Shown: positions 1 to 6,539 of the stretch, one piece after another
How the letters are laid out: each line of letters starts with the position of its first letter
Position numbering within the stretch: the stretch's first letter is position 1
Assembly: GCA_027061995.1 (NCBI GenBank)
Contig: JAMOUT010000061.1
Coordinates: forward strand, 1-8,868
Direction: 5' to 3'
From: Candidatus Aminicenantota bacterium
GTDB lineage: Bacteria > Acidobacteriota > Aminicenantia > JAMOAD01
Length of the DNA: 8,868 nt
Translations under genes and position numbers: made by a program
Notes under the pieces: generated by a model
What the model was told of the DNA's origin: nothing
Databases searched by the model: none
Seen by the model: only the letters and a program-made list of their open reading frames with translations

Positions 1-949
1 GAATAATCTTTGTTTTGAGTCCGAATTTATGCTCTATTAACGAGATTTTTTCTTTTAATATCTTTGAAAGATGAAGAGTCGAAGCCTCAGGTTGTTTAAA
101 AACATCTATTGATACAACCGGCATCCCGTTATATCTTTGTTCATTCCTGATTTTTTTGTAAGCTAATCTGACTTTCCCTATATCCTTAATTCTGATAGGG
201 GTATTTTCCTTTTTCAAAACAATAAGAGCCTCAATCTTTTGTATATTTTCAACACTTTGCGAAAGTGAAAGAGTTATCTCTTTTTTAAAATATTCGGAGC
301 TTACGGAGGGCAATAAAAAAAAATTATTATTCATCGCCCCGTAAATTTGTCCCACCGATATCCCGTATTTATTCATTTTGTTTATATCGAGTGTTATCTC
401 GATTTGAGGCTCCGAACCTCCCCATATCTGCAGATTATCCACCCCTTGGATAGCTCTTAACATCGGAGATATCTCCCTTTCGGCAATATCCTTAAGAGTG
501 TTTACGGAATACTGACCGAATATACCGAAAGATATAAAAGGTTTTTTCTTAAATTCTTCGGGCACATAGGGGATAATCTCCGGAAAACTCGCTTGAGGAG
601 GAATTATATCCCTTAACTTGTTTAACCTCTCTTTAAGTAAAACATAAACCATCTCCATGTTAGCTTTTTTTGAAAATTCCATCTGTATTCTCATACTCCC
701 TTCATCACACTGAGTTTTGATTTTTTTTATCCATCGGACTTGGGATACTTGTTCTTCAACGGGAAGGGCGATTTTCTGAAGAATCATATCGGCGGAAGCC
801 CCCTGCCAAACGGATCTAATTGAAAGGGAGGGGAGTTTTTCATCGGGGATAAGCTCTATCGGGGTGTTTTTTATAGAATATATTCCGAGCAAAAGTATGG
901 ATGCGAAAATCAAAATTGATATAACAGGTTTTTCAATTATCCTTCTCAA
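1..949 (-). CDS. second RND efflux transporter permease, N-terminal part (truncated by window edge)
   Basis: An uninterrupted frame of 316 codons runs off the window. It starts MRRIIEKPVISILIFASILL, the RND N-terminal signature (basic, E-K-P-V, then TM1), followed by YSIKNTPIELIPDEKLPSLS and an RND porter region. Recognisable segments are ALPVEEQVSQVRWIKKIKT (62-80), the MEFSKKANMEM strand/helix (90-100), IQGVDNLQIWGGSEPQIEI (167-185), and IRIKDIGKVRLAY (252-264). It aligns by eye along its length with the complete permease, for example GTNM against KANM and VEVRGGGKQEI against LQIWGGSEPQI, but is strongly divergent. It is therefore a paralogue and not a recent duplicate. The TTG start overlaps the propeller stop as TTGA. 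TM4 and TM10 lie outside the window, so proton-relay residues cannot be judged. Two permeases in one operon recall MdtB/MdtC heteromers, but a separate pump sharing the adaptor is equally possible. Confidence 0.9.
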   Translation of the reverse strand, partial: MRRIIEKPVISILIFASILLLGIYSIKNTPIELIPDEKLPSLSIRSVWQGASADMILQKIALPVEEQVSQVRWIKKIKTQCDEGSMRIQMEFSKKANMEMVYVLLKERLNKLRDIIPPQASFPEIIPYVPEEFKKKPFISFGIFGQYSVNTLKDIAEREISPMLRAIQGVDNLQIWGGSEPQIEITLDINKMNKYGISVGQIYGAMNNNFFLLPSVSSEYFKKEITLSLSQSVENIQKIEALIVLKKENTPIRIKDIGKVRLAYKKIRNEQRYNGMPVVSIDVFKQPEASTLHLSKILKEKISLIEHKFGLKTKII

Positions 950-2052
950 TAATTTTCACCCCTTTTCTTAATAATTATAAAAATTGTATCACTGCCTCTA
1001 TCATAATAAATATAATATAATTTTGTTTTCGATATGAAGAAAGGGAAATTCGTATCTTGAAATTCTTTTAATTTTTTACCGATCGTAGAGAATTTTTTAA
1101 TCTTATATAATTTACCTGCTGTTTTTTTACACACGATAAGTTCCCCTTCAGGATTAAATACAAACCTTTCTATCATAGGTTTGTTTTTGTCGGGAAGATA
1201 CTTTATCTTAAGTTTTTTATACAAATTTTTAAAATAGGGGTTTAATCTCGGAGAATCAAGTTTTTCTTTAATAGCTTTTTGAAATTTGCCTCTATCTATC
1301 AATCTCTTCTTCCACCCCGTATAAATAATGGCTTTTGTCCTGTTTTTAAGATTATAAATATGAATCTTATCTTCATTGTTTTTACATACGGCAATCATTC
1401 GGTTTTTTAAAGAAAAAGCTGTTAAATAATATATTTCAAACGGAACCGAGGGCCAGCCCCCCTTTCTCTCATCCGAAAAATCATGATACGATGTTCCCGT
1501 GAATATCTCTTTTTTTATCTTCCCGTCAACAAGTTTTGATATATGATATTTTGTCCCCCAAAAATAAAGTTTACCTATCTTTTTAAAATCATATCCGTAA
1601 GATAAACCCAAATATATATTTTTATTATCCATTATGAAAATATCCTCAATCCCGAAATCTTTATTTAATTTTATCTTTATTGTTTTAATAAGTTTACCCT
1701 TTTTCGTAAAAACATTGATAAAACGGTTTCCTTGAAAATAATCCCCTTGGTAAATATTTCCGACGGAATCCATGGTAAAGACTCCAAACCATCTTTTAAA
1801 TCTTCCGGGTCCTTCCCCCTTTTCCCCGATTTTATAAAGATATTTTCCGCTCTCTGAGAAAACCTTTATATTGTATTCACTTCTGTCGGCAACAAAAATC
1901 TTATTTCCGAAAACTTTTATCATCCCCGCATTAATATCAAACATAGGCGTTCCTGAGGCTGTTAAAGGGAATTTTTTTAAGACTTCCCCTTTAAGAGAAA
2001 AAGATAAAAAAAATAAAAATATAAAAAAAAATGAAAATCTTTTTAAGCTCAA
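946..2052 (-). CDS. secreted 6-bladed beta-propeller protein inside the RND operon
   Basis: This 368-aa protein has a Phe-rich signal peptide (MSLKRFSFFFIFLFFLSFSL, cleavage near residue 20-22) and no lipobox Cys, so it should be periplasmic or extracellular. Successive blade-like segments are visible. One strand pair (KVFGNKIFVADRSEYNIKVF, about 46-65) is followed by GEKGEGPGRF (76-85), the family motif, and by GNIYQGDYFQGNRFINVF (98-115). A Lys-rich helical insertion (about 255-283) leads to YLPDKNKPMIERFVF (285-299) and the last blades. No catalytic site is visible. The TTG start lies in a TTGA overlap with the permease stop; no later start would keep the signal peptide. The gene ends in a second TTGA overlap with another permease gene. 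This embedding suggests a function tied to the pump, for example as a periplasmic accessory, but that is inference. It is a paralogue of the two upstream propellers. Confidence 0.82.
   Translation of the reverse strand: MSLKRFSFFFIFLFFLSFSLKGEVLKKFPLTASGTPMFDINAGMIKVFGNKIFVADRSEYNIKVFSESGKYLYKIGEKGEGPGRFKRWFGVFTMDSVGNIYQGDYFQGNRFINVFTKKGKLIKTIKIKLNKDFGIEDIFIMDNKNIYLGLSYGYDFKKIGKLYFWGTKYHISKLVDGKIKKEIFTGTSYHDFSDERKGGWPSVPFEIYYLTAFSLKNRMIAVCKNNEDKIHIYNLKNRTKAIIYTGWKKRLIDRGKFQKAIKEKLDSPRLNPYFKNLYKKLKIKYLPDKNKPMIERFVFNPEGELIVCKKTAGKLYKIKKFSTIGKKLKEFQDTNFPFFISKTKLYYIYYDRGSDTIFIIIKKRGENY
957..962 (-). promoter_or_regulatory. ribosome binding site of the second RND permease
   Basis: GGGGTG on the minus strand, followed by A and so partly matching the anti-Shine-Dalgarno complement GGAGGTGA, ends 7 nt before the TTG at 949. 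It supports a TTG start, because no ATG lies between the preceding in-frame stop and the conserved N-terminus. Confidence 0.6.
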
Positions 2053-5000
2053 TTTTCTCCCTTTTTTTCAATACTTTCATATAAAACCGGAATAAGAATC
2101 AAAGTAAGAAAAGTGGAAAACAGTAATCCTCCGACAACAACTATTGCAAGAGGTCTTTGAAGTTCCGAGCCCTCCTGCATCATCAAAGCCATGGGAATCA
2201 AGCCGAAAATCGTTGTAAAAGTCGTCATAAGTATGGGGGTTAATCTGACCTTCGAGGCAATCATCAGTGCTTCTCTGACAGACTTTCCCTGTTGCCGCAA
2301 TTTATTCGTATAATCGATTTTTACAATAGCATCATTAACAACTATACCAACCATGACAAGAAATCCTATCCCCGCTATAACATTGATAGTGGAGCCTGCG
2401 ATATACAATAGTAAAAAAGCTCCGAGAAATCCCATGGGAAGCGTAAGCATAATTATGAGAGGATGAATAAGATTTTCAAACTGGGAAGCCATAACCATAT
2501 AAACAAGAAGAGCCGCAAGAAAAATGGCTTCTTTTATGGAATTAAATGATTTTTTTCTCTCCTCCTCCTCTCCCGAAACTTTAAATCTTGTTCCGGCGGG
2601 GGGGATGAATCCCGAAAGTTTTTTATCAACCTTAGCCGCAATATCTGATAGCTTTTTTTTATACAAATTCGCTGATATCAGAAAATATCTTTCCTGCCCC
2701 TCTCTTGTAATCTCTTTTATGGATGAAACTCTTTTTGTTTTGATAAAATCACTTATATGATAGATATTATTATTGAATTTTACAGGCATTTTCAAAAGCT
2801 CGGTAAAACTTCTGCTTTTTCTCAAGGGGGTCGATAAAACTATATCATAATTTTTCTGAAACTGTTTTAAAACAGATACTTTTTCCCCTTTAAGCGCATT
2901 TGAAATAATATTTGAAATATCTTTTTTCGTAATATTAAGGTTTTTCAATAATTTTTCATTAAAAGACAAGGCAAGGACAGGTTTTCCCCTTTCTATATTG
3001 GATCTTAAATCAACAAGTCCTTTTATCCCTTTCAGTCTGTTTATTATGCTCGCAACACCTTTTTTTCCTTCCTCTATTCGGTCATAGAAAACTTGTATCT
3101 GAAATTCTTCTGCTCCGAATCTTAAATATTCGGAAAGGGTATTTTTCTCGGGATAAACGGAATAATTGAGATCCGAAAATTTTTTAAGTATTTTCCTTGC
3201 TTTTGCCATAAGTTTTTCCCTGTCACCCGAGGCATTAACTATCATGTGAATATTATTTAATGACAACTCCCCTTTACCGAGAGAGATTGATGATACTGCT
3301 CCCACTTGGGTGAAAATATGTTTGATTTCAGGGATTTTTCCAATCTCCTTTTCTATGTTCCCAGCCATTCTGTCTGTTTCCTCGAAACCATAGTCAGAGC
3401 TTGTTTTTGCGGATATCTCAAAATTGTTTGAGATGGTCTGAGGGAGAAGTTCTTTTTTTAATCCGAGATATAATAGAAAAGAGAGGACAAACATAATAAT
3501 CATTATGGAATAAGGGATTGTTTTTTTATCAAGACAGATTTTTAAAAATTTATGATATTCTTCATCAAATTTTTCATAACCATTATTAAAAATTTTATAT
3601 ATGGGTTTCATTATAAGATTAAACAAAAGCGAGATTATCTTTACAATTAATAAAATTAAAACCTTAGTAATTTTAAAAATTATATCAAGAGCTCCTCCTA
3701 CTATTTTCAAAGGGATATCAAGTATAAAATGGGAAACCCGTAAAAATTTATTCCCTTTTCTAATCTCTTCACCTTCGATTTTTTCTTCTGTTTTATCTTT
3801 TGAGAATACCGCAAAAAGGGAGGGAAGAAGTGTTATTGAAACTATAAGTGAAGCAAGTAGAGAATATGAGACAGTAAGAGCTTGATCCCTGAAAAGTCTT
3901 CCTGTTATTCCGTAAATATACATAACAGGCAAAAAGATAACTATTGTTGTAATGGTTGATGCCGTAATAGCTCCGGCAACCTCTTTTGTCCCGTCAATCG
4001 CAGCCGAAACAGCATCTTTTGTTTTTCTGTGTCTGAATAAACTCTCCAAAACAACAATGGAATTATCCACAAACATCCCCACTCCGAGAGCCAACCCCCC
4101 GAGACTCATAATATTGATATTAACTTTTGAAAAATACATTAAAACAAAAGTCGATATAATCGCTATGGGAATAACCGTTGCAACAAGCAATGGATCACGG
4201 GAATTTTGGAGAAAAACAAGTAAAACGAAAAATGCGAGAATTGAACCGAGATACAATGACATTTTAAGAGAATTTATGGAAGAGAGAATCAAGCCCGCTT
4301 CCTCGGTTATTATATTAAATTTAATATCTTTAAACTCTTTTCCCATAAGGGTAAATGCTTTTTTTGCTCTTTGTGTCGCTTTGACTGTGTTTGCATCCGC
4401 CTCTTTATATATTAGAAGCGCAACAGTGGAACTATTATCGAATCTTATATCACCCTGTTTAGGTATCTCATTCAGACTGACAGTTCCTATATCTTTTATA
4501 AAAATGTGACCGGATTTAAGCTTTTTTACGGGGATATCCTCTATCGCTTTATAGTTCTTTATCTCCCCCTCTATTTTCACACTGTGCTTTAGTTTGTTCT
4601 TTCTTATCGTTCCACCGAGGATAACCTGATTATAGTTGCTGATTGCATTTGATATATCATTAAAAGTTACACCATAGAGAGATAATTTTTCAGGATAGAG
4701 TTTGACAAGAATCTCCTGTTTCCCTCCGCCTCTCACTTCAACCCTTGATATCCCTTCGAGTTGTTCAAAACGAGGTTTAATAAAAAATTGAGAAAGCTCT
4801 CTTATCTCTTTTATGGATCTCCCTTTTGATTTTACCACCGCTATGATAATCGGTCTTGAAGAGGGGTCAAACTCAAAAATCTGCGGTTTTTTAGCTCCCT
4901 TAGGTAAAATATCGGAAGTCTCTTCCACCTTTTCCTTAACATGTAAAAGGCCGAAATCCATATTTGTTCCCCAATGGAATTCCACGGTTATTACCGATAC

Positions 5001-5261
5001 CCCCTCCCTTGATACTGATTTAACATTTTTAACTCCCGAAATCGGAGAGAGTTGAGCTTCGAGAGGTTGGGTTATAAGTTTTTCTATCTCTTCCGGCAAT
5101 GCTCCCGGATATTCCGTAACAACCGTAATCTTAGGATAGGAAAGAGAGGGTAATAAATCAACCGAAAGATTTTTTAAAGAGATTATACCGAGTAATATGA
5201 TACCGAGAAAAAACATAACTGTTGCAACAGGTCTTCTGACCGATATTTCCGTAATACTCAT
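2049..5261 (-). CDS. RND efflux transporter permease (AcrB-like superfamily)
   Basis: This complete 1070-aa inner-membrane proton-driven exporter is slightly longer than AcrB. The N-terminus (SVRRPVATVMFFLGIILLG) is TM1, and porter/docking domain 1 spans about 30-330. TM2-TM6 lie between about 335 and 485, TM7 at about 583-600, the second periplasmic region at about 605-905, and TM8-TM12 at about 910-1062. TM4 reads GMFVDNSIVVLES, so the AcrB Asp407 equivalent is Asp399 while the Asp408 equivalent is Asn400. TM10 reads GIVVNDAIVKID, with Asn976 where AcrB has Lys940, then Asp977, and a lysine five residues later (Lys981). A long hydrophobic cytoplasmic-loop segment lies at about 505-555. The ATG at 5261 follows the adaptor stop by one base and has no clear Shine-Dalgarno, implying coupling. 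Substrate is unknown: drug-type (HAE-like) is favoured over metal-type, with low certainty. Confidence 0.95.
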   Translation of the reverse strand: MSITEISVRRPVATVMFFLGIILLGIISLKNLSVDLLPSLSYPKITVVTEYPGALPEEIEKLITQPLEAQLSPISGVKNVKSVSREGVSVITVEFHWGTNMDFGLLHVKEKVEETSDILPKGAKKPQIFEFDPSSRPIIIAVVKSKGRSIKEIRELSQFFIKPRFEQLEGISRVEVRGGGKQEILVKLYPEKLSLYGVTFNDISNAISNYNQVILGGTIRKNKLKHSVKIEGEIKNYKAIEDIPVKKLKSGHIFIKDIGTVSLNEIPKQGDIRFDNSSTVALLIYKEADANTVKATQRAKKAFTLMGKEFKDIKFNIITEEAGLILSSINSLKMSLYLGSILAFFVLLVFLQNSRDPLLVATVIPIAIISTFVLMYFSKVNINIMSLGGLALGVGMFVDNSIVVLESLFRHRKTKDAVSAAIDGTKEVAGAITASTITTIVIFLPVMYIYGITGRLFRDQALTVSYSLLASLIVSITLLPSLFAVFSKDKTEEKIEGEEIRKGNKFLRVSHFILDIPLKIVGGALDIIFKITKVLILLIVKIISLLFNLIMKPIYKIFNNGYEKFDEEYHKFLKICLDKKTIPYSIMIIMFVLSFLLYLGLKKELLPQTISNNFEISAKTSSDYGFEETDRMAGNIEKEIGKIPEIKHIFTQVGAVSSISLGKGELSLNNIHMIVNASGDREKLMAKARKILKKFSDLNYSVYPEKNTLSEYLRFGAEEFQIQVFYDRIEEGKKGVASIINRLKGIKGLVDLRSNIERGKPVLALSFNEKLLKNLNITKKDISNIISNALKGEKVSVLKQFQKNYDIVLSTPLRKSRSFTELLKMPVKFNNNIYHISDFIKTKRVSSIKEITREGQERYFLISANLYKKKLSDIAAKVDKKLSGFIPPAGTRFKVSGEEEERKKSFNSIKEAIFLAALLVYMVMASQFENLIHPLIIMLTLPMGFLGAFLLLYIAGSTINVIAGIGFLVMVGIVVNDAIVKIDYTNKLRQQGKSVREALMIASKVRLTPILMTTFTTIFGLIPMALMMQEGSELQRPLAIVVVGGLLFSTFLTLILIPVLYESIEKKGEN
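2057..2063 (-). promoter_or_regulatory. ribosome binding site of the TTG-initiated propeller
   Basis: AAGGGAG on the minus strand lies only 4 nt before the TTG at 2052, within the last codons of the RND permease. The short spacing and the weak start codon suggest that translation depends on ribosomes finishing the permease. Confidence 0.5.
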
Positions 5262-5262
5262 C

Positions 5263-6489
5263 TTATTTTATTATTTTAACTTTGGATTGATGGGCAAGCG
5301 TAAGTTGACCTTCCACTATAACAAGTTCACCCTCTTCCACTCCGCTTTTAACTTCAACCTCCTCGCTGTTCTGCTCCCCCATCTCTATATATCTCCAAAG
5401 AGCTATGTTTTTTTCAACAACAAAAACAAGAGGTCTCTCGGATCTGACTAAAACAGCTTTTCTCGGAACTTTTATCACATTTTTCAAAATATTATATTCT
5501 ATTTCAGCTTCAGCTCTCATCCCCGCTCGCAGATATCCCGGATTTTTTAAATTTATATATATAGGCAAAGTTTCCTCTTTTTCCGAAAGTTCGGGACTTA
5601 TAGCTTGTATCTTTCCATAGAAAAACTTATCGGGAAAACTCGTGAATCTTATTCTAACCCTCATCCCCACTTTTAATTTTGAAGACTCTGTTTCAAGAGC
5701 ATAAGCTTTAAGATAAAGTGAATTAAGATTAACCATTCTGAATAAATCGGCTCCGGTTGCCACTGTTTCACCTTCCGAAATCTTCATATCGGAAATTATC
5801 CCTGAAAAAGGGGCTTTTATCTTTGTCCTTTCATAATCAATTCTTGCTCTTGCAAGTTTAATTTCAGCTTGAGTTAATCCCATAACAACCTTTCTGACTT
5901 TATCTCTGATAGTTCCTGTTTCAATCATGATTTTCAAGAGCTCATCTTCGGAATCATGAAGTTCGAGTTCGGAAACCTCCCCTTTTTTATACTTCCTAAG
6001 CATCTCTTCATAATCTTTCTTTTTCTCGGAAAGAATAGTTTTATCATTTTCCGAAAGATTAAAGGAAAGATTCATGGAATTTACAAGATATTTTGAAAGA
6101 GCTTGGAGTCTTAGAGCTTCCGCATCTTTTAAAGCTAATTTTTTTTCAGTATCATCGATTTTGATTATAATATCCCCTTTTTTAACCCTATCACCAATTC
6201 GTTTTTTAATCTCAATAATTCTACCCGTAACCTCAGCTTTTACTGTTGCTTTTTGTCTGACTTCGGAAACAGCGGAAACTTCAAGTCTTAAAGGTAATTC
6301 CCCTTTTTTGATTTCAACAACTTTCACCGGAAGAGGAGCTTCATCCCCCTTTTCTTCAGCATTTGTTTGTCCCGTCATTTGTTCGGTTTCACTCTCATCC
6401 GAAGTTTTCTTTTTAATTGACTTATATCCGAGAAAAACCACCACGGCAATAATTAATAAAATAGATAAAACCTTAATAATTTTTTTCAT
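5263..6489 (-). CDS. RND efflux pump periplasmic adaptor (membrane fusion protein, HlyD/AcrA type)
   Basis: This 408-aa adaptor would link the inner-membrane RND permease to an outer-membrane channel. Residues 4-21 form one hydrophobic membrane anchor without a lipobox Cys, so it is anchored by a transmembrane segment rather than lipid. An acidic linker follows (about 25-52). The two halves of the barrel-sandwich (lipoyl) domain are visible at about 80-112 (VTGRIIEI, then GDRVKKGD) and 222-262 (IKAPFSGIIS, then EGETV). They flank a charged alpha-helical hairpin (about 113-220). A beta-barrel domain covers about 265-335, including PGYLRAGMRAEAEIEY, and a membrane-proximal domain follows to the end, beginning VPRKAVLV. 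The size is normal for the family. The stop codon is one base from the start of the RND permease, the usual adaptor-permease order. Substrate cannot be read from the sequence. Confidence 0.93.
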   Translation of the reverse strand: MKKIIKVLSILLIIAVVVFLGYKSIKKKTSDESETEQMTGQTNAEEKGDEAPLPVKVVEIKKGELPLRLEVSAVSEVRQKATVKAEVTGRIIEIKKRIGDRVKKGDIIIKIDDTEKKLALKDAEALRLQALSKYLVNSMNLSFNLSENDKTILSEKKKDYEEMLRKYKKGEVSELELHDSEDELLKIMIETGTIRDKVRKVVMGLTQAEIKLARARIDYERTKIKAPFSGIISDMKISEGETVATGADLFRMVNLNSLYLKAYALETESSKLKVGMRVRIRFTSFPDKFFYGKIQAISPELSEKEETLPIYINLKNPGYLRAGMRAEAEIEYNILKNVIKVPRKAVLVRSERPLVFVVEKNIALWRYIEMGEQNSEEVEVKSGVEEGELVIVEGQLTLAHQSKVKIIK

Positions 6490-6510: not shown

Positions 6511-6539
6511 AATCTATCACAAAATAATAAGTTTGACAA
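6511..6539 (-). promoter_or_regulatory. candidate sigma70-type promoter for the RND operon
   Basis: On the minus strand TTGTCA (6539-6534, five of six matches to TTGACA) is separated by exactly 17 nt from TAGATT (6516-6511, four of six matches to TATAAT). Transcription would start near 6504, giving a leader of roughly 15 nt that barely includes the Shine-Dalgarno sequence. The position and spacing are good, but the background is AT-rich and the -10 element is weak. Confidence 0.35.

Follow-up and report, generated by a model that had tools for sequence, protein, structure and literature searches.

A putative exported beta-propeller encoded between the two permease genes of an RND operon in Candidatus Aminicenantes

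Pumps of the MdtABC type are encoded by operons in which one periplasmic adaptor, placed first, is followed by two non-identical RND permeases, and are not known to contain a propeller. Exported six-bladed beta-propellers of the DUF5128 and TolB_like families occur in the Bacteroidota, and a solved example is BF0058 (4raa); we know of no function for these proteins. In the literature that was searched, no paper tying exported propellers to an RND pump was found, and nothing pertinent was obtained on propellers together with RND, on DUF5128, on NVEALA or on Aminicenantes. In Bacteroides thetaiotaomicron, gene-table entries (PMC10434189) place the '6-bladed beta-propeller' BT0664 five locus numbers from the RND-type adaptor BT0669; as far as these entries tell, the BT0663-BT0669 region resembles the locus analyzed here in having a propeller near an adaptor of this type.

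The stretch of DNA analyzed in this work (hereafter the window, 8,868 nucleotides) is the whole of contig C61 of a Candidatus Aminicenantota genome (G000), and all the genes described in it are on the minus strand. The adaptor or membrane fusion protein (MFP, 408 aa) is encoded at positions 5263..6489 and, after a gap of 1 nt, is followed by RND1 (2049..5261), a full-length permease of 1070 aa. The stop codon of RND1 overlaps by 4 nt (TTGA, 2049..2052) the start codon of PROP, a propeller of 368 aa (946..2052), whose stop codon overlaps in the same way (TTGA, 946..949) the start codon of RND2; in each overlap TTG is the start and TGA the stop. The gene order and the three junctions are as given in a preliminary description of this sequence. 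The TTG starts of PROP and RND2 match the ATG starts of their orthologues in another genome, G011; without them PROP would lose its signal peptide, and RND2 its first membrane helix. Only the N-terminal 316 aa of RND2 (2..949) are present, given that the gene is open at the edge of the window. The first 127 bases of the window are identical to the end of contig C91, and from this overlap, taken by itself, we infer that both contigs are contiguous; RND2 would then continue in frame into C91 (L036:3384-5603), to reach 1013 aa in all. Upstream of MFP, a gap of 200 nt separates it from another propeller gene, P5, and holds a promoter-like site (TTGTCA-17-TAGATT, 6511..6539, minus strand), recognized by its match to the consensus, of a kind found five times where 2.9 would be expected by chance. 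Rfam gave no match anywhere in the window. PROP is presumably co-transcribed with the pump genes.

The pump proteins were readily assigned to known families. RND1 scored 751.9 bits and the RND2 fragment 171.2 bits against PF00873 (ACR_tran, cut-off 28), which identifies both as RND permeases of the AcrB/AcrD/AcrF family, and MFP is a periplasmic adaptor by its score of 185.2 bits against NCBIfam TIGR01730 (RND_mfp, cut-off 94.9) and its matches to Pfam HlyD and HlyD_D23. The operon shares with MdtABC the single adaptor in first place and the two different permeases encoded together, and differs from it in containing a propeller gene and in being without an outer-membrane factor; RND1 does not reach the NCBIfam cut-offs of MdtB (380.3 of 1584 bits) or MdtC (411.2 of 1774 bits). 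Neither the window nor C91 contains an outer-membrane factor; four TolC-like genes located elsewhere in the genome qualify as the outer-membrane factor of a tripartite RND system, and one of them belongs to the only other RND pump of the genome, on contig C79. Both permeases (window 2-949 and 2049-5261; L036:3384-5603) carry D-N in TM4 (VDN), and an asparagine replaces the TM10 lysine of AcrB (GIVVND in RND1; GIVVND/GIVVNN for the pair), an ion-relay pattern unlike that of AcrB which is common to many RND2 orthologues. It was also considered that the second permease could be degenerate, and no sign of this was observed; the TM4 aspartate of the VDN motif is kept in both proteins.

PROP scored 29.3 bits against Pfam PF17170 (DUF5128, '6-bladed beta-propeller'; gathering cut-off 22.9), and its orthologues in G011 and G014 are likewise above this cut-off. 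The AlphaFold model (mean pLDDT 90.4, pTM 0.86) shows a propeller behind an N-terminal signal helix, and the N-terminus is predicted to be a signal peptide, with no lipobox. Its best matches among solved structures are six-bladed NHL domains, with Z about 20, which makes the modeled fold six-bladed. The model also matches two exported Bacteroides proteins without assigned function, BVU_1028 and BF0058, the latter with a Z of 17.2 over 279 residues; like PROP, BF0058 is exported and six-bladed, whereas the identity between PROP and propellers of this type is about 12% and PROP is placed inside an RND operon. From these predictions PROP would reach the periplasm as a soluble propeller of NHL-like type, and a fold common to PROP and solved structures is no proof of function.

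The locus encodes at least six propellers including PROP; the other five, two upstream in the window and three downstream in C91, are missing from the preliminary description. P5 (6690..7775, minus strand, 361 aa) is exported and TolB_like (PF15869, 35.4 bits, cut-off 29.2), and P6 (7757..8866, minus strand, 369 aa) has a lipoprotein-like N-terminus (LMANC). P6 has no Pfam family above cut-off on its own, and was recognized by its match to a propeller profile that includes P6 itself. In the whole genome there are about 27 propeller genes. PROP shares only 16-21% identity with P5 and P6, and the idea that it arose from either of them by a recent duplication within the locus was therefore discarded.

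Orthologue-level matches to RND2 were found in most of the 142 genomes of the class to which G000 belongs ('Candidatus Aminicenantes' MAGs), and the core of the system would be an RND export pump, formed by one adaptor and two different permeases, that is widespread in the class. Of the 74 loci that hold both permeases, 67 have at most 100 nt between RND1 and RND2, and 29 show a 4-nt overlap of the two genes. The exact order MFP-RND1-PROP-RND2 was observed in G000 and in G011 (L037), a member of a second family in which PROP is 45% and RND2 59% identical to the G000 proteins. In G026, a KptA gene separates PROP from RND2, which lies downstream of it, and a different contig carries RND1, with other genes after it; G014 and G056 have PROP orthologues away from the pump, and G009 carries a different propeller between the permeases, among other ORFs. 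RND1 and RND2 are separated by other genes in G007, G014 and G062; in G007 these include a DNA methylase and a MjaI-type restriction enzyme gene (L080:3423-5373). When the single PROP protein was used as query against the genome contigs nothing was found, and the PROP alignment recovered the four relatives already known. Hence the arrangement is not private to one genome, since it recurs in another family, but the conservation of the order across genera that the preliminary description contemplated does not extend to a fixed position, the permeases being adjacent without a propeller in the 67 loci mentioned above. A location between the permeases is uncommon and can be dispensed with, and the closeness of propellers to the pump is recurrent.

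G003 and G004 are the nearest relatives of G000, with permeases that share 81-85% identity with its own; in both, PROP is absent from the RND1-RND2 junction, and no PROP orthologue was found elsewhere in either genome. In the RND2 tree, G000 groups with G004 and then with G003, next to family f4, which includes G011. The RND trees are mirrored by the PROP tree, and the PROP/RND1 distance ratio is 1.50-1.73 in all six pairs of G000, G011, G014 and G056; this near-constant ratio suggests that PROP was inherited vertically and was lost or relocated several times. The propeller gene between the permease genes probably predates the split of families f1 and f4 and would have been lost or moved later in many descendants; its absence from the junction in G003 and G004 would thus represent a loss. 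The G003 junction, where short repeats agree at 20 of 23 nt, can be explained by a loss between them and equally well by an insertion into G000, so that it was not taken as proof of a deletion. A 38-aa ORF in the 96-nt RND1-RND2 gap of G004 was considered as a propeller remnant and rejected, given that its score of 22 is close to the mean of shuffled sequences (20.9) and was equaled or exceeded in 177 of 500 shuffles.

The association of propellers with this pump was evaluated at 40 pump loci from 40 genomes, taking each genome's own propeller density as the expectation. Near the pump, 22 propeller genes were counted where 1.28 were expected, and a propeller is present at 10 loci where 1.25 were expected, with a profile built with sequences from G000, G004, G011 and G014, in which detection is therefore favored. 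When family f1 is left out, 7 loci carry a propeller against 1.09 expected. Among pump-side propellers, 29 of 31 are on the strand of the pump (p=2e-7), and the gene just upstream of RND1 is a propeller instead of the adaptor in seven loci, which belong to families f3, f7, f9 and f10. Outside the class, a propeller is close by in 3 of 6 comparable MFP-RND1-RND2 loci (G214, G153 and G332). No propeller is found near any of 20 other RND pumps, these controls being mostly from genomes whose focal pump is also without propellers; within the genomes of the control pumps, a propeller is near 3 of the 17 focal pumps and near 0 of the 20 controls, numbers too small to prove specificity for this pump. 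Pump-side propellers do not form a single dedicated lineage (20 label changes in the tree versus a shuffled mean of 23.3), and belong to many lineages.

A short exported Cys-rich peptide gene is located 16-107 nt upstream of 6 of 82 propeller genes, and only 14 such candidates are present in the DNA examined, so that 6 of the 14 precede a propeller. These genes, each directly upstream of a propeller and on its strand, are at L163:3407-3646 (+), L083:13019-13231 (-), L037:15853-16077 (-), L166:11509-11736 (+), L177:1041-1286 (+) and L029:1141-1365 (+); one pair is in the G003 pump locus and another upstream on the G011 contig. Five of the peptides were compared with Pfam and NCBIfam, and none of these five has a family above cut-off. 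Given that the criteria for the peptides were fixed after the first examples had been seen, the possible peptide-propeller pairs represent a lead and no result. In addition, exported small proteins that are AhpC/TSA-like or carry CxxC adjoin propellers at L177:2427-3017 (+), L218:10091-10678 (-) and L166:15708-16142 (+), and a further one is found in a pump locus at L083:10100-10576 (-); the L166 and L083 proteins show similarity to one another (E 1e-7).

The reading that best accommodates these observations, in which we place middling confidence, is that PROP is a co-expressed, dispensable periplasmic accessory of the pump. The propeller would be made together with the pump and exported to the periplasm, where it would contact the pump and most likely help it, e.g. 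as a regulator of transport or through the binding or presentation of a ligand; it is considered dispensable because the permease genes are adjacent in most loci and because the closest relatives have no PROP there. Its position and its translational coupling between two permeases could also indicate an obligate scaffold or gate joining RND1 and RND2 into one machine, a role that is hardly tenable considering that the very similar permeases of G003 and G004 have no PROP at the junction nor an orthologue elsewhere, and that most pumps of the class have no propeller at this position. From the preliminary description, the coupling and the export are upheld, whereas the obligate gate or scaffold is not, in view of G003 and G004, of the PROP orthologues placed off the pump in G014 and G056, and of the mixed lineages of pump-side propellers. 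It is also conceivable, although less likely, that PROP landed by neutral hitchhiking in a junction that tolerates insertions, with no link to transport, and that the overlaps only preserve the translation of RND2. Propeller genes are numerous (about ten on one G004 contig, besides those of G000) and would be prone to duplicate and move, unrelated genes are found between RND1 and RND2 in G007, G014 and G062, and the pump-side propellers are of mixed lineages; in contrast, the enrichment near the pump and the strand bias are far above what genome density would give, the order is common to two families, and PROP and RND1 diverge in step.

An accessory role of PROP has also to be weighed against the idea that the propellers form a separate exported module with the Cys-rich peptides and the thioredoxin-like proteins, whose products the pump would export or protect against. 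The pairing of 6 of the only 14 candidate peptides with propellers, the pairs in the G003 pump locus and on the G011 contig, and the AhpC/TSA-like or CxxC neighbors in L177, L218 and L166 point in this direction; nevertheless, we judge it improbable, since neither the window nor C91 yielded such a peptide gene, the first examples were known before the criteria were chosen, and, to our knowledge, export of peptides of this size by RND pumps is not generally known. Equally a long shot is a broader proposal in which an RND branch of Aminicenantes and other Acidobacteriota would use interchangeable exported propellers as periplasmic adaptors for substrate recognition or cargo handling, possibly for short Cys-rich peptides, so that specificity would change by propeller swaps and not by permease swaps. 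If the link between PROP and the pump is functional, RND pumps, a transporter family among the best studied, would gain a new kind of periplasmic partner, and a first clue would be at hand to what a large, uncharacterised family of propellers does; otherwise the locus illustrates clearly how a gene is inserted into an operon and lost from it.

Other propeller neighborhoods show further gene content. On contig C174 of G004 (L166:380-18576), the ten or so propeller genes all have the same orientation, and small genes and an AbiEii-like gene lie among them. In G051 (L043:8239-15171), the adaptor gene is separated from two propeller genes upstream of RND1 by genes for two large proteins without family assignment and for an ABC transporter ATPase.
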